DNA of 64,000 bases from Candidatus Bathyarchaeota archaeon (lineage in GTDB: Archaea > Thermoproteota > Bathyarchaeia > Bathyarchaeales > Bathycorpusculaceae): positions 868,001-932,000 of the forward strand of contig JAOZHS010000001.1 in NCBI GenBank assembly GCA_026014745.1, in the 5' to 3' direction. Both the position numbers and the translations under genes were made by a program. Under the pieces are notes generated by a model. That model was not told where the DNA came from. It saw only the letters and a program-made list of their open reading frames with translations, and ran no database searches. Shown piece after piece: positions 23,330-35,225 of the stretch (position 1 is the first letter of the stretch; every line of letters starts with the position of its first letter).

Positions 23330-24259
23330 TCAGAGGATTTCTCCAACTACTTTGATTGGTTTAGGAATCAGCGCCTCTAAATCTTCCAGTCTCTGGGGGT
23401 CTATGGTGGCTAAGACGACGGTGGCTGGACCCGCCGACTTATTCAAATCCAACCCTGAACTCTCAACAAGCTTAAGTTGACGCCCCACACCATACGCCAT
23501 CATACGTGCCTCGCTGGCGATGCCGAAGCCGCCCACACATGAAATGTCATGCACGTATTTGCGTTGGCTGAGTTGGAGAATGTTTTTGAGGTCTGCTATT
23601 TCTCCGTGGGCTTCTGCAGCTATGACTTCTTGGCCTACTTTGGGTTTGCCTACGGCTACGATGAGGTCTCCGGGGCTGGTTTTTCCGAGGCGGAGTTCAT
23701 CTTCGTTTGCGAATCCGACGACGGTTAGGCCTGCGCCGGTTTGGGTGGTTTGGAAGTTGTCTTCGGTGTTTTCCATAAGCACTTGGTTGGGGTCTAAGCC
23801 TATGGTTCGGGCTTCGCGTCGGATGCCTTCGGCTATTTCGTTGCCTGTGGGGTCTTTTTCTACGCCTAAGGTGACTGAGAGAAGTACGGGGAAGGCGCCG
23901 GTTGCGGTTACATCCATCAAAGCGACGCGACCTAAGAATTTGCCGAGTACGCGTCCGTTGACTTTGACTTGGTCTTGGGGTTTGGGTCCGACTGCGCCGC
24001 TGGAGGTGGAGCCGACGACTATGGCGTGTCCGGTGGGGAGTTTTAGGATGGAGACGTCGCCGTGGCGGGTGTAGCTGATTTGGGCGGGTTTGACTTGGAA
24101 GACTATTGGGCGGAGCATGGTGCCGACGTTTTCGGTGAGGTGGAGGTATATGGTTAGGGCTTGGCGGATGACTTCGCTGCGGGTTAGTTCGTGTTTTTTG
24201 GCGAGTTGGTCGACGTCTTTGGCGATTTTGTCTGGTAATCGGACGTTTATGATTTCCAC
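23330..24259 (-). CDS. Ribbon-helix-helix / AIRS-like fusion, putative cobamide-salvage regulator
   Basis: 309 residues from GTG 24259 (AGGTG lies 8 bases upstream). Residues 1-45 (EIINVRLPDKIAKDVDQLAK ... LTRSEVIRQALTIYLHL) are a CopG/NikR ribbon-helix-helix DNA-binding domain. Residues about 65-309 are an AIR-synthase/ThiL-like two-domain kinase fold clearly homologous to the CblS-like protein at 24856-25626 (shared GPKP, GKF..RVALM, QTG.G.TVVG, KSAGPAT). The palindrome at 24271-24288 lies just upstream of the start and the CblT-CblS pair is divergent. Inference: the kinase-like domain senses alpha-ribazole or a nucleotide and controls the locus. Confidence 0.8.
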   Translation of the reverse strand: MEIINVRLPDKIAKDVDQLAKKHELTRSEVIRQALTIYLHLTENVGTMLRPIVFQVKPAQISYTRHGDVSILKLPTGHAIVVGSTSSGAVGPKPQDQVKVNGRVLGKFLGRVALMDVTATGAFPVLLSVTLGVEKDPTGNEIAEGIRREARTIGLDPNQVLMENTEDNFQTTQTGAGLTVVGFANEDELRLGKTSPGDLIVAVGKPKVGQEVIAAEAHGEIADLKNILQLSQRKYVHDISCVGGFGIASEARMMAYGVGRQLKLVESSGLDLNKSAGPATVVLATIDPQRLEDLEALIPKPIKVVGEIL

Positions 24260-24270
24260 AAATAGCACCT

Positions 24271-24288
24271 GTATTACGTATGTAATAC
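24271..24288. promoter_or_regulatory. Perfect palindrome GTATTACGTATGTAATAC, putative RHH operator
   Basis: Arms GTATTAC and GTAATAC are exact complements around GTAT. The site lies 12 bases before the GTG of the RHH-AIRS gene and about 52 bases before the cblT-like ATG, whose TATA candidate CTTTTATGCC follows at about 24299. RHH dimers bind short two-fold sites of this size, so autoregulation and control of cblTS are likely. Confidence 0.7.
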
Positions 24289-24340
24289 GTGTAGATAGTC
24301 TTTTATGCCTTATCCTCAGCCTTCTAAAACCTGACCAACC

Positions 24341-24859
24341 ATGACCCAAAACAACCTCCAAATCACCCTAACAAGCAACCGAACCAGCATCCGCATCGCA
24401 AGAATCGCCATCTTCTCCGCACTATGCGCAGTCGGCGCACTCATCCAAATCCCCAGCCCACTTGGCAGCTTAGCCTTCGACTCAGCAGCAGGCTTCTTTG
24501 TCGCCCTCTACTTCGGATCCAAAGAAGGCGCAGCAGTATGTGGCCTCGGACACCTCGCAACCGCAGTCGTCAGCGGCTTCCCCTTAGGTTACCTCCACAT
24601 TCCAATCGCCCTTGGCATGGTTCTAGCTGGAGCCGCCATCGGAACCCTAAACAAAATGAACAAAAAATGGGGTTTCCTACCAGCCTTAGGCGTCGGAGTA
24701 GCTATCAACACCCTCTTCACCTTCGTTGTGGCACCTGACCCCAACTACGGCTTAGCCATAGCCATCGCTTTACTACCGTTTGTCTTCACCGCTGCTGTGC
24801 TCAACGGCGTTGCCTCAGGCCTAGTCTACGCTGGCATACGAGGGAAAAAACCAATTTGA
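24341..24859 (+). CDS. CblT-like ECF S-component (putative alpha-ribazole transporter)
   Basis: 172 residues with about five or six hydrophobic helices and the ECF-S pattern RIARIAIFSALCAVGALIQI ... GFFVALYFGSKEGAAVCGLG. In Listeria and Geobacillus a small S-component-like protein (CblT) pairs with the alpha-ribazole kinase CblS; here the same order occurs with a 4-base overlap (TTTGA). The substrate assignment rests on that pairing. A leaderless-type TATA lies about 35 bases upstream. Confidence 0.7.
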   Translation: MTQNNLQITLTSNRTSIRIARIAIFSALCAVGALIQIPSPLGSLAFDSAAGFFVALYFGSKEGAAVCGLGHLATAVVSGFPLGYLHIPIALGMVLAGAAIGTLNKMNKKWGFLPALGVGVAINTLFTFVVAPDPNYGLAIAIALLPFVFTAAVLNGVASGLVYAGIRGKKPI

Positions 24860-25626
24860 ACCTCACCCACCCATTTTTTCCGCTAAAAACCCCCCGCGAC
24901 CTGCGACTTTTCCAATACACAGCAGATGACGTGCTCGTTATCGCTTGCGACTCTTTAGGCGGCATAGGTCCTAAACCACTTGACTATGTCCACGTCGACG
25001 GTTATACTGTAGGTAAATTCACCGCCCGAGTTGCTCTCATGGAGACCCTCTCAGTTGGCGCTCTACCCCTTTGCGTTGCAGATAACCTCTGCGTAGAATA
25101 CGAACCTACCGGAAGGGAGATACTGCGAGGAGTATGCGACGAAGCAATCTTGGCGGGATTAGACCCTGAGTCGGCTGTAACGGGTAGTACCGAGAAAAAC
25201 ATCAGCGTAGAACAAACGGGCCTAGGCGTAACCGTGGTGGGCACCTGCAAAAAAGCGGCGTTGCGCATTGGCGTTTCAAAGCCAAACGATGTCGTCATCG
25301 CCATTGGTGACCCCTCTGTTGGGGAAGAAGTGGTGCCTGCTGAGGCAGAAGGCAGAATTTGTGGTGTCGCTGATGTTTTGAAGCTTTTGAGTGTTGAGGG
25401 TATGCATGAAGTTTTACCTGTTGGCTCTGAGGGGCTGGGGCATGAAATTGAAGTTTTGTCCGCTTCTTCAGGCCTCCACTTTTCGCCTGATTTTGTGAAG
25501 GTTGATTTGGCAAAATCCGCTGGGCCCGCAACTGCTCTTTTAGCTTCCATATCCGCTTCCAAAATCGATGCAGTAAAGCAGTTGTTTAAAAACAAACCCG
25601 TCCGAAAACTTGGCGCTCTCTCTTAG
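24856..25626 (+). CDS. CblS-like alpha-ribazole kinase (AIRS/ThiL fold)
   Basis: 256 residues from TTG 24856, overlapping the transporter stop. The AIR-synthase-like N domain holds LVIACDSLGGIGPKPLDYVH and GKFTARVALMETLSVGALPL; the C domain has VVIAIGDPSVGEEV and VDLAKSAGPATALLASIS. The reaction expected for CblS is ATP-dependent phosphorylation of alpha-ribazole to alpha-ribazole phosphate for lower-ligand salvage of cobamides. Relatives include ThiL and HypE, but the partner gene favours CblS. It ends near a bidirectional hairpin terminator. Confidence 0.75.
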   Translation: MNLTHPFFPLKTPRDLRLFQYTADDVLVIACDSLGGIGPKPLDYVHVDGYTVGKFTARVALMETLSVGALPLCVADNLCVEYEPTGREILRGVCDEAILAGLDPESAVTGSTEKNISVEQTGLGVTVVGTCKKAALRIGVSKPNDVVIAIGDPSVGEEVVPAEAEGRICGVADVLKLLSVEGMHEVLPVGSEGLGHEIEVLSASSGLHFSPDFVKVDLAKSAGPATALLASISASKIDAVKQLFKNKPVRKLGALS

Positions 25627-25649: not shown

Positions 25650-25664
25650 GGCGTTTTTAACGCC
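25650..25664. terminator. Hairpin terminator between convergent cblS-like and GH5 genes
   Basis: GGCGTT-TTT-AACGCC is a perfect 6-bp stem that includes the GH5 stop codon. It is followed on the minus strand by CCATTTTCTTTTTTA, and A/T-rich sequence also precedes it, so it can end transcription from the minus strand and perhaps from both. Confidence 0.6.
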
Positions 25665-27294
25665 AGAAGGAGAACCACATGTGGAATCGGTTCCATGAGA
25701 ACATGTTCCATATGTTCCATTGACAGTGGTATGTTGGTATGTGGCGTGGTATCCATGTATTTCCTGGCTGGTTTGGTGAAGTGGTTGGTGTTGGAGTTGG
25801 GTCTGTCGGGGTATCGGTTGGGGTGGGTGTTGTGGTTGGTTTAGTTGTAGGTGTAGGCGTCTGTGTTGTTGTTGGAGTGGGGGTGGGGTTGGGGGTTGGA
25901 GTCGAGGTTGGGGTAGACGTTGGGGTGGAAGTCGGCGTTGGGGTCGGTGTTGCAGTCGGTGAGGGCGTGGGGGTTGTGGGGTTGGAGGGGGGACCGTTGT
26001 AAGCGTTGATGTATGCTTGACCCATAGTGTTTGGTGTGTAGTTTGTGCCCGTAGAAAGCATGGTTTCGCTTGAATAAGCGGGTCCTAAGCCTGCGTCGCT
26101 GAGCCAGTAGTATGCGCCTGCGCCTATGCCTAAGTCGCGTTGTGCTAAGACGAGGTTTTGCCACCAAGTGTAGTCGGCTTGTCTGTTGCTTGATGCGATG
26201 AGGCAGGAGCCTTCTTCGTTGATGACTAGGGGTGCGGTGACGCCCATGCTGTTGATGCCTGTTTGAATCTGTGTTTTAAGGGTGTTGTAGTCGGTTGCCC
26301 AGTAGGAGGTTAGGTCGCTTGGTGCGTGGTAATAGAAGTGTGTGGTGTAGACAATGTTTGTTGGGTGGATGGCGTCGTTGATTTGTTTTGCGAAGCCTAA
26401 GGTTGCGCCGTAGCCGTTTGGCATCCAGCCCATGTGCCACTGCATCATGATTAGGTGGTTTGAGCCTGTGCCGCGGATGGCGTTGTACATTGTTTGGAGA
26501 TAGGTCATGTAGGATGAGGGTATCGGGTCAACGTCAGTGCCGGGTTGGGGTTCGTTCCATGCTTCAAAGATTGCGTTGGGGCAGTCTTTTAGTGTGGTTG
26601 CCATGTCGCTCCAGAACTTGCTCCAGAAGCCTTGTTCGTTGCCTGCGTAGCCTGCGTCGCTTAGGAATTTGGTTCCTACGCTGTCCCAGCCCATCATGGG
26701 TAGGCCTTGGGATCCTGCCATGTTTGGTGATGCATATTTGTCTGCGCCGAATGAACCAGAGTAGGGAGTTAGCATGTAGGGGACGATGTCAACGTAGATT
26801 CCGTATTTTGCTGCTTCATTGCAGAGGGTTTGCAAGTACGCTTTGGTGCTAATTGGGGTGGTTAGGTGCGAGTAGCTGCTATCTACCTGTGCTGGTACAA
26901 TGTTGTCTTGGTAGTACCAGCTTGGGAAGATAAAGACCCGAATCATGTTGACATGCCACTGTGACTGCATTGCGCTGAAGGTCTGGTCCATTACGGAGGT
27001 GGGGTTGTAGTTCCATTGATCCGCCCAAGAGTCTCCTCCGCTTGAGTCCCAAAGAATAAGGTCAGGCGCGAAGCCTGCAAGGCCTACGCCGCGGAGGTAA
27101 ACGACGTTTCCGTTAGCGTCAAGAATCTGTGCTCCTGACGTGTGAAGCGCCGTGGCTGTTGCTGCTTTTGCGGTAGGTGCCAATGACAGCGTTGATACCA
27201 TGCTGACGATGAAGATGGCGGTGAGGCAGAGAACCAGTGGCTTTGCGATTTTTCGTTTGTAGTGCAGATTTTTTCCAAATATGTTGGGTTTCAT
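25657..27294 (-). CDS. Secreted GH5 cellulase-like glycoside hydrolase with Pro/Thr linker
   Basis: 545 residues. A signal segment (about 15-45) precedes a GH5 barrel: LRGVGLAG at the entry, acid/base Glu248 in EAWNEPQPG, YYHAPS, and the nucleophile Glu in LVINEEGS (360-361). Residues about 437-515 are an almost pure Pro/Thr/Ser linker. The last 28 residues are neither a membrane helix nor a known binding module but rich in Trp, His, Phe and Met (CQWNIWNMFSWNRFHMWFSF). AGGAAGAG lies before the ATG. Expected to cleave beta-1,4-linked glucans or mannans outside the cell. Confidence 0.9.
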   Translation of the reverse strand: MKPNIFGKNLHYKRKIAKPLVLCLTAIFIVSMVSTLSLAPTAKAATATALHTSGAQILDANGNVVYLRGVGLAGFAPDLILWDSSGGDSWADQWNYNPTSVMDQTFSAMQSQWHVNMIRVFIFPSWYYQDNIVPAQVDSSYSHLTTPISTKAYLQTLCNEAAKYGIYVDIVPYMLTPYSGSFGADKYASPNMAGSQGLPMMGWDSVGTKFLSDAGYAGNEQGFWSKFWSDMATTLKDCPNAIFEAWNEPQPGTDVDPIPSSYMTYLQTMYNAIRGTGSNHLIMMQWHMGWMPNGYGATLGFAKQINDAIHPTNIVYTTHFYYHAPSDLTSYWATDYNTLKTQIQTGINSMGVTAPLVINEEGSCLIASSNRQADYTWWQNLVLAQRDLGIGAGAYYWLSDAGLGPAYSSETMLSTGTNYTPNTMGQAYINAYNGPPSNPTTPTPSPTATPTPTPTSTPTSTPTSTPTPNPTPTPTTTQTPTPTTKPTTTPTPTDTPTDPTPTPTTSPNQPGNTWIPRHIPTYHCQWNIWNMFSWNRFHMWFSFWR

Positions 27295-27556: not shown

Positions 27557-28516
27557 TTGAAAAACAAGATTCTAGCTTTAAGTCTCCTTTTACTATTAGC
27601 AACCCTGATGATTGTCAGTGTTTCGCCGCCAGCTTCGGCTGCAGGAGAAGGACAATGGATAACCGCGTATACAATTGAAGATGCGTCAACTGGGGAACCA
27701 CTGGTAGAATACAACTCCGCTACTGGAGTTAACGAAACCTATTCGCCTGTGTTACCTGGCGCAGACATCAAAGTTACCTTTACCATCGACGTGTTTGCCT
27801 CAGGTTCAGGCAACCTCAAACTTACAACCTCCCTAACAAAATCGGCTTCTCACCCTAACGGCTACTGGGAACTGCTAACTGACGACTATGACTTGGGTCC
27901 TGACTATAACCCGGCATCTAAATCAACTGAATTCAACTGGGACGTCGGAACCTTCGATATGGCATTATACGGCACCGTTCCAAGCACCACTTCAAAAACT
28001 GCTAAAACCGTTAACGTTGTGACTCTGACTAGTGAAGCAGGCGGAGCAGCCATCGACCAAATTAGCGTGCAAGCCACCAGCGCCGGATTAGCTGCCTTCA
28101 ACTCCCTCTACAGTAAGCAAGAAGACAAACTCCAAACACTCATAGACGGTGGAGTCGCCAAAGGTTACATCGACATCTACACCAACGTGCTCAACGCTTC
28201 CAAAGCCATCGCCAACAGCGGAAACGTCGAAGAAGCAATGGCACTCCTAAACGGACTTAACGTTGCAAACGAGCCTGTTTCGTCCACAATGGAGACGTTG
28301 TTCTTGCCAATAGTTGTCGTGTTGGCTGTTGTAGCGGTTATATTTGTGGTATTGTTCATGCGGATCAGAGGTAAAGTTAGTTACTTCCAGCTTGTGGTGG
28401 AAGACCAAATCAAGGACTTAGAGGGCTTAACGCTAAGAGCTTCAAAGATTGATCGTTCTATGTCATCAAGTTTAGAATCCATTAAAGACCGTCTAAAAAA
28501 CCTCGTTGGGATGTGA
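27557..28516 (+). CDS. Surface protein with one membrane helix and cytoplasmic helical tail, linked to tubulin-like gene
   Basis: 319 residues from TTG 27557 (strong AGGAGG 8 bases upstream). A signal peptide (1-28) precedes an extracellular beta-rich domain (about 30-175), a helical stretch (about 180-240), a membrane helix (LFLPIVVVLAVVAVIFVVLF, about 246-266) and a cytoplasmic coiled tail (VSYFQLVVEDQIKDLEGLTL ... SSSLESIKDRLKNLVGM). The TGA overlaps the GTG that starts the tubulin-like gene, so the two are translationally coupled. Inference: membrane receptor or anchor for that filament protein. Confidence 0.8.
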   Translation: MKNKILALSLLLLLATLMIVSVSPPASAAGEGQWITAYTIEDASTGEPLVEYNSATGVNETYSPVLPGADIKVTFTIDVFASGSGNLKLTTSLTKSASHPNGYWELLTDDYDLGPDYNPASKSTEFNWDVGTFDMALYGTVPSTTSKTAKTVNVVTLTSEAGGAAIDQISVQATSAGLAAFNSLYSKQEDKLQTLIDGGVAKGYIDIYTNVLNASKAIANSGNVEEAMALLNGLNVANEPVSSTMETLFLPIVVVLAVVAVIFVVLFMRIRGKVSYFQLVVEDQIKDLEGLTLRASKIDRSMSSSLESIKDRLKNLVGM

Positions 28517-31216
28517 TAGCATACGAGAATCTACCAAAACAGTGTACAGCTCATAGGGCTTGGTTCAGCTGGAACTAACATAGTAGAAACTTTCCTGACC
28601 AACAAAAAAACCCGCGAACTAGTTGGGAATGACCTTACCCGTCTTTCCCTTTTGGCAATCGACATTGCTGACCCTGAAATCCGCAGCCTCCAAGAAACCC
28701 ATGAGCAAATACAACGACAGATGATAAAAGCAGGCATACCCCGTGAACGCATGCGCCTTATCGCGCAGTCCGTCAAGTTCCCCACTGCCGAAGCAATGTT
28801 TGACTTCATCAACCAGAAATATGGTGAATACCTCATAGGGGAAGGCTCAAAGCTAGAAAACTTTGTTCCTTGGCTCCAAAGCACAATGGCCATTCCTCCT
28901 ATGGCTGGCGGGGCAGGACGCAGACGCGCACTTGCCAAAGCTATCTACGCCTTAAACTATTACCAACTCGGAATCATCCGAAACGCCATAAACTCTTTCA
29001 AAGAACAGGCGCTTTCATCAATTGTCACCCCCACGGTGGCTGTGGTTTACGGTTTAGGCGGAGGAACTGGCAGCGGAGTATTCTTCGACTTCGTTAAACA
29101 CCTTCGAAAAGTTTTAGGCTCAGGCGTCGCCATAATCGCGTTTGTCATTACCCCCTGTGGCGGAGATGACCCCCCAGCAAAAGGTTGCTCCTCCTTTGTC
29201 GCCTTAAACGAACTCAACCTCATGCTCAACAAAGACTACAACGAATACGTCATCAAAGAATTCGGCGAACCCTACCGCAACCCCCTCAACGCACTCATCT
29301 ATTTACCCTTGCTCCCTGCATTCTCCAAAGTCGGCAACATCGTGAGTGCTCGACGGGAAATGGACGAAATGGTTGTGGACTTGCTTTATGTGCTGATGGA
29401 CTTTGACTTAGCAGACCTCTTAGGCGGCATAGGCACCGAAGTCGGCTTAACTAACAACTCTGCACACACCTTAGGCATGACCAAAGTCATTTACCCCGTT
29501 GAAGACTACATCCTTGCCTACAAACTCAAATTTGAATCCATGCAGATGCTTCAAGACTCCCGCAAAGAAAAACTGGACATACTCGACGAAATAAACAGCG
29601 TCATAAAAGTCGACAGCGACGTAACTCGGGAACTCTTCAAGAATTACCTCATCAAAGCAGGCACCTTTAACGAGGACCAATTTGACGACAAACTCAAAAC
29701 CATCATAAACAGCAACCCACGCCTCGAAGACGATACTATCCTGCACGTGAAGGGTGTAGAAATCCAAGTTAAAAACTGGATAAACGACATCATGCAGTTC
29801 CTAGCTACCATCAAGCTCATGGGCAAGACTGGTCCCATCGAGCAATCCATCATTGACTTAACCCTTAAAAAAGAGGGCACACGCAAGATGGATAACCTCG
29901 AATCGCTGCTTACCAACCTCACCAAGACCTATCTGGACTTTTTCGATAAGAAAGCCCAAATCGTAGAACGCCTCAACCAACTCATACCCAGCTCGCAAAT
30001 CTTCACATTAAGACAAAAGAAGGTACTCGGAGACCTCGTCAACATCGCCGAACTCGCCGATAAATCGCTAAGAATCCTCAAATTCTACGATGAAACCCGC
30101 TACGTCACCGACGCGCTTTTACGCTACTATGAAGCGCTGCCCGAATGTCAGGCAGAAATCCAAGAGCTAAAAGACATCCAAAACGAACTCGCCACCATCT
30201 ACCTAATCATCCAACTTATGCTGCGAACACCCTCTGACGAAGTCAGAATGATCGATGAACACCTCACATACATCAACGAAATCCTCGACAGACGCCTGCA
30301 GAAACGTGGCGACTTCGACAATGAAGTCATGCGCGTCCAAGAAATCAAGAAACGCAAAGAATTCGATAAAACAAAGCTGGAACGCCAAGTCCGCAAATTC
30401 TTAAGTAGCAAACGCTACGCCCGCGAGCAGCTCCTCGGCATCGACCGTGAACTCAAACGCGTCGAACAGGAAGAAGCCTTCGCGCTTGAGAACTTAGACA
30501 AAGTTGACAACACCATTAAGCTCTACGAGAAACTCTCTAAACGCTTTGAGTTGGTGGCTGAATATCGTAAGCGCCTCAACAAAATCGTTGACCTGCATGA
30601 TGAATACAAGGCAAAAATCGCCGAGATTGTCGCGCCGAAACGTTACTTCGAGAAGAACGCTGACCTCACCGAGCGGGAACAACTCAAAATCATCTTCAAA
30701 ATCCTAACCGAGCAAGAAGAGAACCTTACCCGAGATGTCATCTACAAAGACATCCTAGACTTAGACCACTTCAAAGACTACATGAAGAGTGTTGTCCGCG
30801 CTTTCAAAACACCCAGCATCATGGGCTTCAAACCAACCTACAAAACTGACTACCTCTGGGTCACCATCGCTACACCGCCCAAAATGTGGACCGAAGACAT
30901 GTCACAGGAAATCTACACTTCCCTTGCAGGCTACGTTACCAGCGAAGTCAGCAGAACCGTTACTGTTCGTGTACTTGAGTCACGTGACGAATGGATAACC
31001 CGCATCATGGTTGTTGCAGGACGCGGTAAACCCGAAGACATGGAAGCCTTCGACGAAATGCAGTTACTGTTCAGCAAATCCAGCGACTTCGAACGCTACC
31101 TCTCACGCAGCTATCTACTTGAACACGGCGTACACGCAGGGCAAATCATCAAAAAACTCGAATATCTCAACGGCAACGTCAACGGCTCAAGCCAACCAAA
31201 CAACAATAAACGATAA
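28513..31216 (+). CDS. Large tubulin/FtsZ-superfamily GTPase with helical C-terminal extension (start disrupted by one-base frameshift)
   Basis: About 900 residues if read from GTG 28513 with one A removed from the AAAA run at 28536-28539. Nucleotide motifs follow in order: GLGSAGTN (about 15-22), AGGAGRRRA (about 131-139), tubulin signature GGGTGSG (182-188), and a T7-like loop DFDLADL with Asp 298 and Asp 301 matching the catalytic FtsZ NxDxAD positions. From about 340 to 800 it is mostly long helices (QRGDFDNEVMRVQEIKKRKE style coiled coil); a compact C-terminal domain (about 800-880) precedes a polar tail. Without the correction the first usable start is TTG 28652, which omits the G-loop. 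FtsZ is about 370 residues, so over 500 are extra. Close to FtsZ-like families proposed for membrane remodelling; not a normal FtsZ or CetZ. Confidence 0.85.
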
Positions 31217-31224
31217 TAATCCAC

Positions 31225-31256
31225 GCAGCTTTTTGCTGCCTCCCTTAATTTTTATT
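31225..31256 (+). terminator. Hairpin terminator of the tubulin-like gene
   Basis: GCAGC-TTTTT-GCTGC is a perfect 5-bp stem just after the stop at 31216, followed by CTCCCTTAATTTTTATTTTA. It separates the tubulin-like gene from the convergent degenerate paralogue. Confidence 0.6.
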
Positions 31257-31339
31257 TTAGCAATTAGACATAGACGCAAGTCTGTTTCTGCAGAATATGA
31301 CTTGAGGGAGCGATAACTATCTAAAAAGAGTGCTTAACT

Positions 31340-32746
31340 CTATTTAGCCGCTGTTTTTCTTGCTCTGGACGTACGTTTAGGTTTGGTTGCGGTTTTCTTT
31401 GGTTTGGTTTTTTCTTGAGTAGGTTGCGTCTCGGCTTTTTTGGTTCGGCGGCTGCGTTTAGGCTTCTCCGGGGCAGTTTCAGTTTCCATGCTTTGGGGCG
31501 CTGCAACTTGGGCTTCTACTGTTGGCGTCGGTGCAATTGGCTCCTCTGGTATATTTGGCTCTTCAGGGAGCGGGGGCGCTGGCACTTCTACAGGTTGTTC
31601 TTTTGGTGCCTCCGCAGGTGGCGCGGGTTGGGTTATTTGAATTACCTGCCAATCATCCGTAATCCAGCCCTTTTCAACGGCTTGGGTTTTGAGGGCTGCC
31701 GATTTCTTCTCTAACTCGGAAAACAACGGCGATGTGTCAAATCCGCCTATGAATAGTGCGATGTCAATGCGGTCGGTTAAATCTTGGGTGTAGATGGGTT
31801 CGGTTATGTAGATGGATTTGAGTTTCGCTTTATCCTTGAACCAGTCGGCTATGGTTAGCTCGATTTTGCCTACGGGTAGCTTGTCTTTGAGATTTAACGG
31901 CAGACGAATTAGACCATAGAGAACAGTGGCTGTGGAGAGGTCAAAGCCTGTGAAGGGCTTAAGCATGGCGGTGTTTAGCATGTTTTCTATGTTGCCATAG
32001 ATTTTGAGGCTGGCACCCGTTATAAGTATAGGCGTGAAGAGTTGATTGCCGAAGTTTTTGGATAACTCGGAAACTTCATCCACCAAAGTGTCTTTACTTA
32101 TGCACATATTCACCAAATAGTTTGCGACGGTGCTGCCTTTGATGGGTTTTCCCTGTCGGTCTACCCCCTGATAGCTTTCGAGGAGGTCACGGTCCATCAG
32201 CAGAACAGTTGCGCCCTCTATGGTTTGGCAAGCTTGCAACGCCGCGAAGGTGTTGAATTGGGCGTCTGCAGGCTGCACACGCGAAGGCAAAACCGCTATC
32301 CCCAACGCATCCTGATTGAGGGTTTTTAGCTTCTTTATATTAGTGGGCAGGGCTGCGGAGCCAATGCCATCCCAGACCGACGCGAAAACCACCGCGCCAT
32401 GTAGCTTCTCGATTGACCTCTTTTTTAGGCTCTCAAGGATGGTTTCATCGCTTGTAAGCGCTGGTTGTATGTTGTAATAGAAGTGGGTTTCGACTTTTTG
32501 GTCTTCAAACCCTAAAATGTGATGTACATAGAATCCTCGGGGAATCATTCGGTAGATTTCGTCGCCGTCTTTTTCTACCAAAATGGGCAGTGGTCCACCT
32601 TTGCTGATTGTGGGGCCCCTTAAAAGCAGTTTAATGGGGTATTCTCCTGCGCATATAACGGCTTGTTTAGGTAAAAGCGGCTTAAGCGATTCAATATGTT
32701 TCTCTACGCTTGCCAGTATGTTAAAACTGCCTTTTCCATCTTTCAT
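31340..32746 (-). CDS. Degenerate tubulin/FtsZ-like protein with Pro- and Lys/Arg-rich tail
   Basis: 468 residues. The middle part resembles the FtsZ core: VVFASVWDGIGSAALPTN (119-136) at the place of the GGGTGSG loop, then LGIAVLPSRVQPADAQFNTF, and ATVLLMDRDLLES (179-191), like the FtsZ run ending in IVIPNDRLLE; TGFDLSTATVLYG (266-278) sits where T7 should be. The N-terminal G-loop is missing and the Gly-rich loop altered, so GTP binding is unlikely. Residues about 371-430 are Pro/Glu-rich and 430-468 strongly basic (KRTSRARKTAAK), as in DNA- or acid-surface-binding tails. Convergent with the active-looking paralogue and divergent from the membrane protein. Confidence 0.75.
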   Translation of the reverse strand: MKDGKGSFNILASVEKHIESLKPLLPKQAVICAGEYPIKLLLRGPTISKGGPLPILVEKDGDEIYRMIPRGFYVHHILGFEDQKVETHFYYNIQPALTSDETILESLKKRSIEKLHGAVVFASVWDGIGSAALPTNIKKLKTLNQDALGIAVLPSRVQPADAQFNTFAALQACQTIEGATVLLMDRDLLESYQGVDRQGKPIKGSTVANYLVNMCISKDTLVDEVSELSKNFGNQLFTPILITGASLKIYGNIENMLNTAMLKPFTGFDLSTATVLYGLIRLPLNLKDKLPVGKIELTIADWFKDKAKLKSIYITEPIYTQDLTDRIDIALFIGGFDTSPLFSELEKKSAALKTQAVEKGWITDDWQVIQITQPAPPAEAPKEQPVEVPAPPLPEEPNIPEEPIAPTPTVEAQVAAPQSMETETAPEKPKRSRRTKKAETQPTQEKTKPKKTATKPKRTSRARKTAAK

Positions 32747-32807
32747 CCGAGGTACCTACATAAGGTTTAAGAGCAGTTTACTCAAAATAAGGTTTTAGGT
32801 TGATCGC

Positions 32808-35225
32808 TTGACTAAGGCTCCCAAAAGACCTTCTGGTTTAAGTGTTTGGTACAACGCTTCAAAACAGAAACGAAAAGAAAAAGAAGAACAGCAACGCAAT
32901 CAGGAGCCAGGCTCACTGAAATGGCTCACCCTAATCATAACGCTAGTCGCCATGTCGGTGGGCATGTCGATTTTGCCCCTTTTTCCCCAGCCGCTTCCCA
33001 TATTCCTCGCTGTACTGGTAGCATTCATTACCTATCAGGTCCCCCGTGTTGGAATGCCAATTGGCGGCTTCATCCTCGGGTTAGGCTTACTCTATCATTT
33101 AGCCGAATTGTACTTCATCTCATTTTTAGGCGACACTGCCGTCCGAGTTGCATTCATCGTCATCTGGATGGCGCTTTTCATCATCCCCCCTGCTCTCTTT
33201 AACCGCTACAGAAGCGCCTTAGCCATCGACTTCGGTATCCTCGCGGTCGCAGCCCTTTTCTCCGCGCCTCTCTACTTCATGGCAATCCCTCTAATCATTG
33301 CTTCAGCGGTTTTCTTCAAAAAATACGTGGGCTTCACAGTCATCTACTATGTGTTGCTCTCGGTGCCCCTGCAAATTATGCAGTACTACCAATACACCGT
33401 GTTGCCAATAGTCGAAGATGAGTGGTGGCTTGAAGCAGGTTCCGCCCCGCCTCTGCTTGTCCCCCTAACCGACATCGCCAAAGACCTCAACATCTCCATG
33501 AGCCAATTTCGACTCTATGATGTGTCGCAGGCCTTCTACTCCATTGCTGGCCAAACCACTTGGACCCCTGACTGGAGCGGTCGCTCCATAGCAGACGCAG
33601 TTGTCCAATATCGCGACTCTATTCCCGGCATCTTGATGTTTGCGGTTATTGTAGTAGGATTGGCATTAACGCTGCTTTTCTTCACCAAATTCATGACCAA
33701 AGAAGGCATCATAGGCGTCAACGACAAATATTTCCTAATCTTCACCGCCACCATGGCAGCCGCCATCTTCTTCGTGCTGCTAAGCGCCCTACAGAAACCC
33801 CTAGCATTTACAGCCGACGTCAGCGCAACAACCATGGTGCTAGGAATCTTTGGTACCCTTCTGCTAACTTTGCCCGTGTTATTCATTGACACTTCGCCCA
33901 AACAGACCACTTCCTTTGCGGAAGTCAAAGAAAAAGCTGAGAAACTCAAAGCTGACCTAGACAAATTTGCAGCTCAACTTAACGTCGTAAAAGACGCCTT
34001 GCCCGTTGTGGTAGCTGGGCCTGAAGGTAAAGCGCTTCGAATTCAAGATTCCTTAAATGAGATACTCAAAAACATTGAACTCCGCAAATATGACCAAACT
34101 GACTTGGACCAGAAACTCAAAGACATCCAAACCCTAAACACAGAAAAAGACACCCTTGAAGCCGAAGTTAACCGTATCCTCACTGAATATCAAATCTCTG
34201 CCAACGGCGAATACTCTAATTGGGTCGGCAAACTCCGCACTGAATGTGGCATAAACATCCAAACCAGCTATGTACCCCAAATCCTCAAAGACCAAACCAT
34301 CGAGCAACGCGTTGAAGCTATCAAAACTGTGCTGGCGGCGGGCCGCTCGGTCACTCGTGAAACCATCGATGTTGTGGCCCCAATTTATGATATTATCCGA
34401 CCTCTCTATGACCCTAACTTGCCTGAGAAATGCCGCGCAGTTGAATACTCTAATCAGAAGTTGGCAACCAAAGAAGCTCCTTGGTTAGCTATTGATGCCC
34501 TCTACTTGGCACTGAACAATTGGCGGCGCCAGTATGGTGCGGACATTCAAACTTCGCTTAGGTACCTCAAGAAGTCCCTTGCGCCAATTGCAGCCCTGAA
34601 TGGTCAAGCGGATTTGTTGCCTGCAGTTTTTGGGGATGAAACTCCAAAAATCCTTGACTACGCCAAAAAAGCCGAAGGCATGCGGACGCTTACGGCGAAG
34701 CGGCTGGAGAAAGAAGAAATTAACATCCTCGATGTGGTCGCCTTCAAAGATGACATCCAAGCCTTCCTCGGCATGGCCAACGATGTGCTGCTGATGCTCT
34801 ACAAGCAGCTAATCGGTGAGGAGACTGACATTGATGAGTTGGTGCCCACTAAAGATTATCTTTGGGAGAAAAACCAAACTCTGGGCGAACGCCTCAAAAA
34901 AGCCACCACCCGTCTCTCCAACCCCAAGGACTACAAGATCAATCAAATCATGGAGAAACTCCCCGAGTACCTCTCATACGTAGATGAAGCCGTGCAGACT
35001 CTGTCGGTTTATAGTGAACGTAAAGAGTTCCTGCTAAACTACCCGCTTGCTGAAGCAGCCATACAACAACAGCTCCAAACCAAACAGCAACTAACCCCCA
35101 AAGACTTGCCTTTTAACCCGCAATTCGCAGGCGAATACCTACGTCTCTACTACACACAACGATATGGAGAATATGCGTTTGATAAGGACACGCAGGTGTT
35201 AACCCGCAGGCTCTCCCCCATTTAG
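32808..35225 (+). CDS. Polytopic membrane protein with large cytoplasmic helical domain, tubulin-like cluster
   Basis: 805 residues from TTG 32808. A basic N-terminal segment (KQKRKEKEEQQR) is followed by about nine to eleven membrane helices up to residue about 365, with one extracellular loop of about 90 residues (EDEWWLEAGSAPPLLVPLTD ... WTPDWSGRS). Residues about 370-805 are cytoplasmic and helical, with coiled coil at 372-480. No transporter signature is recognised. It is divergent from the degenerate tubulin-like gene with 61 bases between starts, so shared control is likely; the soluble part is a candidate docking site for the filament protein. Confidence 0.75.
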   Translation: MTKAPKRPSGLSVWYNASKQKRKEKEEQQRNQEPGSLKWLTLIITLVAMSVGMSILPLFPQPLPIFLAVLVAFITYQVPRVGMPIGGFILGLGLLYHLAELYFISFLGDTAVRVAFIVIWMALFIIPPALFNRYRSALAIDFGILAVAALFSAPLYFMAIPLIIASAVFFKKYVGFTVIYYVLLSVPLQIMQYYQYTVLPIVEDEWWLEAGSAPPLLVPLTDIAKDLNISMSQFRLYDVSQAFYSIAGQTTWTPDWSGRSIADAVVQYRDSIPGILMFAVIVVGLALTLLFFTKFMTKEGIIGVNDKYFLIFTATMAAAIFFVLLSALQKPLAFTADVSATTMVLGIFGTLLLTLPVLFIDTSPKQTTSFAEVKEKAEKLKADLDKFAAQLNVVKDALPVVVAGPEGKALRIQDSLNEILKNIELRKYDQTDLDQKLKDIQTLNTEKDTLEAEVNRILTEYQISANGEYSNWVGKLRTECGINIQTSYVPQILKDQTIEQRVEAIKTVLAAGRSVTRETIDVVAPIYDIIRPLYDPNLPEKCRAVEYSNQKLATKEAPWLAIDALYLALNNWRRQYGADIQTSLRYLKKSLAPIAALNGQADLLPAVFGDETPKILDYAKKAEGMRTLTAKRLEKEEINILDVVAFKDDIQAFLGMANDVLLMLYKQLIGEETDIDELVPTKDYLWEKNQTLGERLKKATTRLSNPKDYKINQIMEKLPEYLSYVDEAVQTLSVYSERKEFLLNYPLAEAAIQQQLQTKQQLTPKDLPFNPQFAGEYLRLYYTQRYGEYAFDKDTQVLTRRLSPI

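Follow-up and report, generated by a model that had tools for sequence, protein, structure and literature searches.

The four genes of the locus

A stretch of 64,000 nucleotides (nt) from Candidatus Bathyarchaeota archaeon (assembly GCA_026014745.1, contig JAOZHS010000001.1, forward-strand positions 868001 to 932000), referred to in its full length as the window, carries four neighbouring genes, here g1 to g4, which encode two membrane proteins and two proteins of the tubulin superfamily. These genes make up a genuine four-gene system that has been conserved. Its GTPase belongs to a known but uncharacterised family, and new are the partners of this GTPase and, in one archaeal family, its conserved ACG start codon. 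All four genes proposed in a preliminary description of this DNA are present. The genes g2 and g3 are convergent, with 123 bases between their stops, and the gap of 61 bases from which g3 and g4 diverge is likewise confirmed. A promoter scan of this gap covered sigma-70-type sites only and identified no promoter. The features of the locus are, in window positions:

27557-28516, plus strand: g1, 319 amino acids, TTG start after AGGAGG; signal-like hydrophobic N-terminus, divergent extracellular domain, one transmembrane (TM) segment at about residues 244-268 and a short cytoplasmic coil
28361-28513, plus strand: cytoplasmic tail of g1 (residues 269-319), its best-conserved part
28508-28522, plus strand: g1/g2 junction, GGGATGTGATAGCAT, with the g1 stop TGA at 28514-28516, a GTGA, and 6 nt from the TGA to the ACG
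28523-28525, plus strand: ACG start codon of g2, from an alignment of 22 genomes of f1, the family to which the window genome belongs
28523-31216, plus strand: g2, 897 codons, GTPase of the Tubulin_2 (FtsZ-like 1) type, its tubulin-like core containing or followed by a long helical region
29057-29077, plus strand: T4 GTP-binding loop GGGTGSG of g2 (residues 179-185), from motif conservation in homologues
29402-29416, plus strand: T7 synergy-loop motif FDLAD of g2 (residues 294-298), equivalent to the DxxD catalytic acids of FtsZ
29498-30808, plus strand: long helical region of g2 (residues ~326-762), from the secondary structure of a model of moderate confidence
31340-32746, minus strand: g3, 468 amino acids, ATG start; degenerate tubulin-fold protein
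31343-31462, minus strand: basic C-terminal tail of g3, confined to close relatives
32747-32807, no strand: divergent g3/g4 intergenic region, 61 base pairs
32808-35225, plus strand: g4, polytopic membrane protein of 805 amino acids, TTG start; hydrophobic segments within residues 35-363
33897-35222, plus strand: C-terminal hydrophilic domain of g4 (residues ~364-805), presumably helical and cytoplasmic

A GTPase of the Tubulin_2 family

The g2 protein matches the Pfam family Tubulin_2 (PF13809) with 56.5 bits, above the curated cut-off of 27 (E=3.7e-15), and has the N-terminal FtsZ-like GTPase with GGGTG(S/T)G and the extended helical region behind it by which FtsZ-like 1 proteins are recognised; it is a member of this group. 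PMC9871819 treats Pfam Tubulin_2 as identical with the FtsZ-like proteins that Makarova and Koonin described in 2010 (PMC2875224). The earlier separation of the system from the families of these authors therefore has to be given up, and only the partners differ. A canonical FtsZ it is not, as the match to PF00091 reaches 26.2 bits against a cut-off of 33, and the 897 codons contrast with a usual size of about 360 residues.

The motifs GLGSAGTN (T1), GGGTGSG (T4) and FDLADLL (T7) are invariant or nearly so in the homologues, which bears out the GGGTGSG and the DxxAD T7-like loop previously noticed in this protein of about 900 residues. The T4 motif is invariant with the sole exception of the distant homologue of genome G211 (GGGSGSG). 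Both T7 aspartates are found in 36 of 36 sequences, the most distant ones included; the loop follows the predicted H7 helix and reads FD[LMIV][AS]D, or ID[VI]AD in G547 and G543. These motifs suggest that g2 is probably an active GTPase.

The structural model of g2 (predicted local distance difference test, pLDDT, 66) shows a helix ahead of T7, followed by a single strand, a helical stretch of about 430 residues, and finally strands and a helix. We interpret the helical region as a possible long insertion in the tubulin C-terminal domain, between strands that would correspond to S7 and S8. The C-terminal 140 residues taken alone are without a Pfam match.

A degenerate tubulin and two membrane partners

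The predicted structure of g3 (pLDDT 70-88 in the core, 60 overall) has CetZ as its top Foldseek match (E=7.9e-13), and the matches listed all belong to the tubulin superfamily. Sequence profiles point to the same superfamily, with Asgard AtubB2 at E=1.6e-4 and CetZ at E=0.003, and PF00091 is found in 9 of 13 members of the g3 family. The expectation that both g2 and g3 are tubulin-superfamily proteins holds, for g3 by predicted fold and for g2 by Pfam match and motifs. In g3 the fold is kept and the GTPase motifs are not: because T4 has become SxWDG[VI]GS in place of GGGTGS and the T7 acid pair is lost, g3 is probably catalytically dead and no GTPase. The degenerate tubulin of the preliminary description is thus upheld, but the basic tail described with it is not a defining trait, as this Pro/Lys-rich extension occurs in some close relatives only. 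A recent origin of g3 by duplication of g2 was considered and rejected, as the profile comparison is weak (probability 0.8%, with the T4 regions aligned). Because direct profile homology between the two is this weak, we place g3 by its matches in the tubulin superfamily and not as a duplicate of g2.

The 51 residues of the g1 tail have a mean pairwise identity of 75% among relatives, against 43% for the ectodomain, and this pattern of conservation is what one would expect if the tail docked onto a conserved partner inside the cell. The TM segment and coil of g1 give a weak PspB-like match (17 bits against a cut-off of 25.6, and 20.5 against 90), and the scores are far under both cut-offs, so that g1 is not identified as PspB. 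The g4 protein combines its hydrophobic segments, in residues 35-363, with a hydrophilic C-terminal half. Neither g1 nor g4 matches a known tether, transporter or receptor family above cut-off, and a PADLOC search for membership of the locus in a defence system gave no match.

Conservation of the module

The four genes form a conserved neighbourhood. In the order, g2 is found in 27 of 151 genomes, two of them with marginal matches, and among 257 genomes of the class Bathyarchaeia g2 is present in 39, g4 in 38 and g3 in 37, in nearly identical sets. Of the g3-positive genomes, 36 of 37 also have g2, far more than chance would give (Fisher p ~3e-39); a second Fisher test of the co-occurrence yields p ~5e-38, and both tests ignore relatedness. 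The few mismatches are G127, with g3 at a contig edge and g4; G112, in which g2 runs off the contig; and G139, with an 85-residue piece of g4 only. G211 and G251 carry distant g2 genes. The order g1>g2><g3<>g4 is kept in nearly every intact contig of f1 and of f27, another family of the class, and where a contig reaches far enough, a g1 homologue almost always lies upstream of g2; the genes are accordingly far from never being neighbours in related genomes, which had been named as grounds for refutation. Across the two families g2 retains 49-87% identity, and g1, g3 and g4 fall to 24-30%. At one related locus (L011) additional sequence separates g2 from g3. In G120 (L012/L033) g2, g3 and g4 are broken by frame changes, and in G528 (L108:8514-11170) g2 is split into two open frames, in both cases by sequencing error or decay.

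Beyond the class, a Tubulin_2 scan covering 349 genomes of the phylum gave matches in 28; some of these are weak matches in frames of 360-400 residues, which are probably ordinary FtsZ genes. Around the long Tubulin_2 genes, profiles built from Bathyarchaeia proteins only recover g1 (E 5e-20 to 1e-33), g3 (E 3e-3 to 1.5e-9) and, in some genomes, g4 (E ~1e-8 to 6e-10). The layout of the window recurs in the distant Thermoproteota G547, G543 and G555, and a co-directional run g1-g2-g4-g3 is present in G263, G291, G528 and G251, the g3 of G251 being the weakest case of a distant g3. Against the class-wide g4 profile, the g4 of G547/G543 aligns over 708 columns (E=1e-14) and that of G263/G291 over 323 columns (E=3e-9), in the latter possibly helped by hydrophobic composition. 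The value of E=3e-64 for g4 of G528 is circular, as this sequence was already in the profile, and the same holds for the strong E-values of the iterated search for g1-g3.

Downstream of the module, distant lineages have a fifth gene, coding for 212-296 residues (L118:12468-13334, L119:13547-14437, L108:14390-15121, L104:2302-3039 and L075:4194-4832). Its products are similar in size and make-up, with no significant similarity between lineages, and it is not seen beside the window module. The distant g2 of G211 (L074:8408-11290) has a zinc-ribbon-like C-terminal extension and adjoins pyrK and pyrD, as does the window module.

The ACG start codon of g2

One correction to the preliminary description concerns the start of g2. 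Upstream of the T1 loop, back to the in-frame stops TGA and TAG (28514-28519), no ATG, GTG or TTG opens the gene; the stops are followed by CAT ACG AGA, and coding runs from the ACG at 28523 for 897 codons. The coupling of g2 to g1 had been correctly noticed, but the ACG had been missed. Of 22 f1 genomes, 20 carry ACG at this position, one carries ATG and one TTG, whereas within g2 ACG accounts for 8.9% of the Thr codons. In an alignment of 20 g2 sequences we compared the start position with 107 fourfold-degenerate columns whose first two bases are invariant. Because pairwise identity at these columns is 36% and the most frequent third base is shared by no more than 17 of the 20 sequences (mean 10), synonymous sites are near saturation, and not one of the 107 columns is as conserved as the start position, with G in 20/20 and ACG in 19/20.

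The codons preceding the ACG are variable, with stops in many genomes and in differing frames relative to g1. The gap between the g1 stop and the ACG measures 4-6 nt in relatives (6 nt in the window genome), and the GTGA at the junction partly matches the archaeal Shine-Dalgarno core. Conserved RNA structure at the junction was not found. For g1 and g4, relatives use different start codons, all of them canonical, and the sister family f27 has ATG or TTG at the place of the ACG, close behind the g1 stop. In the g2 tree the ACG genomes group in a single clade, within which the codon later changed twice, to TTG and to ATG, a distribution consistent with a single origin. The codon is thus conserved beyond synonymous drift and has no canonical in-frame start upstream, apart from a GTG just before the ACG in one genome (G101, L032) that could serve as start. 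In these comparisons ACG looks like a selected non-canonical start codon of an archaeal gene, and probably acts as a translational throttle on g2; its spacing from the g1 stop would suit termination-reinitiation.

An entry into g2 by readthrough or frameshift from g1, or at a downstream TTG, appears very improbable. It would draw on the shared frame, with stops between, in which g1 and g2 lie in many genomes, on the GTG of G101, and on the TTG at 28652, the first canonical start of g2, which gene callers restricted to ATG, GTG and TTG would pick. The frame relation of the two genes differs among genomes, however, which rules out stop-codon readthrough and excludes a common shift; the TTG would cut away the conserved T1 loop, and the codons that stand in place of the ACG in some relatives are precisely ATG and TTG. 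A frameshift or assembly error at the start is ruled out by the same ACG in 20 genomes with differing frames to g1, and AUC and GUA were discarded as start codons, as those codons vary and the ACG does not. Least probable of all is the editing of the codon from C to U in the mRNA, followed by canonical initiation. ACG and AUG differ by that single change, and ACG starts of plastids are converted to AUG in this way, but no mRNA editing of this kind is known to us in archaea, and nothing in the sequence requires it.

A search of the accessible literature for archaeal ACG starts retrieved nothing relevant, and as far as we know the ACG of f1 would be the first conserved ACG start in archaea. By analogy, the closest precedent found is the GTC start of Streptomyces sigR, which is conserved in 32 of 34 species and sets the ratio in a coupled pair (PMC5472188). 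Both sigR and infC, with its AUU, share with g2 a conserved non-canonical start, a coupled pair and a protein ratio; these are bacterial and IF3-controlled, whereas g2 is archaeal, starts with ACG and is the downstream gene of its pair.

Comparison with known systems

The closest relatives of g2 are the FtsZ-like 1 proteins (PF13809), which likewise have about 900 residues and an N-terminal GTPase with GGGTGSG and a long helical region behind it, often occur in genomes that also have FtsZ, and have membrane proteins nearby. The 2010 paper could not place T6-H7 in these proteins (PMC2875224), whereas in g2 a T7-like FDLAD is identifiable and invariant, although the T6-H7-T7 trait is descriptive and not defining. 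The strands after the helical region of g2, which suggest a C-terminal domain of tubulin type, are a further difference. The neighbours differ as well: a degenerate tubulin and two specific membrane proteins lie beside g2, and of the operon partners described for FtsZ-like 1 (vWA, P-loop GTPase, protein kinase, OmpA-like) no vWA or OmpA-like partner is seen, while the kinase and the P-loop GTPase were not searched for with profiles. The absence of a vWA protein nearby had been correctly remarked, as the sole VWA_2 match of the genome, at C1:991546, lies outside the window.

CetZ (structure 3zid) resembles g3 as its best fold match and as an archaeal member of the tubulin superfamily, but g3 lacks the GTPase motifs; no comparable gene module is known to us next to CetZ. 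FtsZ with SepF and other tethers parallels the module as a GTPase of the superfamily presumably tied to the membrane, but the window genome has a separate canonical FtsZ, and the module partners match no known tether family. The crenarchaeal SSO1376 (PMC2875224) is, like g2, a divergent, membrane-linked FtsZ-like protein of Thermoproteota; its TM helices are N-terminal and in the GTPase itself, while g2 has none. Two Tubulin_2 proteins of more than 1000 residues in G332 and G485 (L105:8052-11207, L106:8307-11357) have predicted TM helices as in SSO1376, and different neighbours.

A proposed membrane-attached tubulin machine and its alternatives

The explanation that we favour, with reasonable though far from full confidence, is that the locus encodes one conserved membrane-attached tubulin-superfamily machine, with g2 made from ACG in f1. 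The sequences show the conserved module, its motifs, the tubulin fold of g3 and the selection on the ACG; the polymerisation, interactions, membrane function, reinitiation and throttle may be pictured as follows. Most likely g2 would self-assemble in a GTP-dependent manner, because it has kept intact both the loop for nucleotide binding and the catalytic loop at the filament interface. The probably dead tubulin-fold partner g3 could cap, nucleate or co-assemble with g2, and g1 and g4 would fasten the polymer to the membrane and link it with the cell surface. Such an assembly would probably shape or remodel the membrane in a role accessory to cell division. In f1, the simplest route would have ribosomes that leave g1 reinitiate at the ACG 4-6 nt past its stop, and this would hold the amount of g2 well below that of g1 and couple it to g1 synthesis.

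Several observations weigh against this explanation. In a fold search with the full-length g2 model nothing matched at E <= 0.001; the top ranks went to long coiled proteins, and gamma-tubulin was among the weak matches, so that the tubulin fold of g2 would follow from its Pfam match and motifs and not from a fold match. The g4 of G263/G291 is placed by position and a part-length match, G211 has no recognisable g1, g3 or g4 near g2, and G552 has only g1 and g2. The module is also patchy even within the genus, and therefore dispensable.

The four genes might alternatively replace FtsZ as the division machine of these archaea, or they might be a trans-envelope device for signalling or secretion. 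We surveyed FtsZ and Snf7 in 20 genomes; many Snf7 matches lie under the Pfam cut-off, as does the Sulfolobus control. Several near-complete genomes with the module and Snf7-like genes lack canonical FtsZ (G054, G065, G108, G121, G241, G242), as a replacement of FtsZ would predict. The module occurs, however, together with canonical FtsZ in G000 and G068, both with Snf7-like genes, and in G237 and G247, without a Snf7 match; the window genome carries one canonical FtsZ gene elsewhere. All 16 genomes of the genus that were tested have Snf7/ESCRT-III-like matches, whether or not they carry the module, and seven tested genomes free of the module have Snf7-like genes and also lack FtsZ (G022, G026, G038, G077, G114, G116, G140). 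A substitute for FtsZ is, in our judgement, quite improbable.

A trans-envelope device, in which g1 would sense or bind outside, g4 would be a channel or scaffold and the tubulin pair a GTP switch, seems unlikely, if less so than a substitute for FtsZ. It would fit the secreted, TM-anchored g1 and the polytopic g4, and the long helical arms of g2 would suit a tether; the T7 acids kept in g2 are those that matter in assembling tubulins, and the lack of any transporter or receptor family above cut-off speaks against it too. Returning to the membrane-attached machine, the module tracks neither division system, and therefore a role beside division is favoured, such as in shape, surface organisation, or vesicle or membrane remodelling. 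The module is probably an accessory membrane or shape apparatus apart from ordinary division.

Canonical FtsZ is itself patchy among close Bathyarchaeia, being present in G000, G050, G068, G097, G237 and G247 and absent from G054, G065, G108, G121, G241, G242 and others. The four tested genomes of f27 have either an FtsZ or a Snf7 match.

Neighbouring genes

A secreted GH5 cellulase-like protein with a Pro/Thr-rich tail is encoded at 25657-27294 (minus strand), upstream of the module, as in many relatives of the genus. Farther away, two paralogues at 23330-24361 (minus strand) and 24856-25626 (plus strand), which by eye look AIR-synthase-related (PurM-like), flank an ECF transporter S-component (24341-24859); the former has an apparent ribbon-helix-helix N-terminus.

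Implications

We found no paper that gives a function for the FtsZ-like 1 proteins since their description in 2010. The module provides this family, in one archaeal branch, with a defined, minimal partner set of a surface protein, a polytopic protein and a pseudo-tubulin. Because this set is conserved over a very large evolutionary distance, the proposal of membrane remodelling becomes directly testable with four proteins. It is conceivable, at somewhat less than an even chance, that we are dealing with an undescribed Thermoproteota-wide cytoskeleton of an active Tubulin_2 GTPase and an obligate pseudo-tubulin, with two membrane anchors and, in one family, a fixed ACG throttle.

Standard gene callers miss such a start and would shorten g2 by 43 residues, with the loss of its first nucleotide-binding loop. 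To judge from the ACG, start codons outside the set of ATG, GTG and TTG can become fixed in archaeal genes and be retained under selection.

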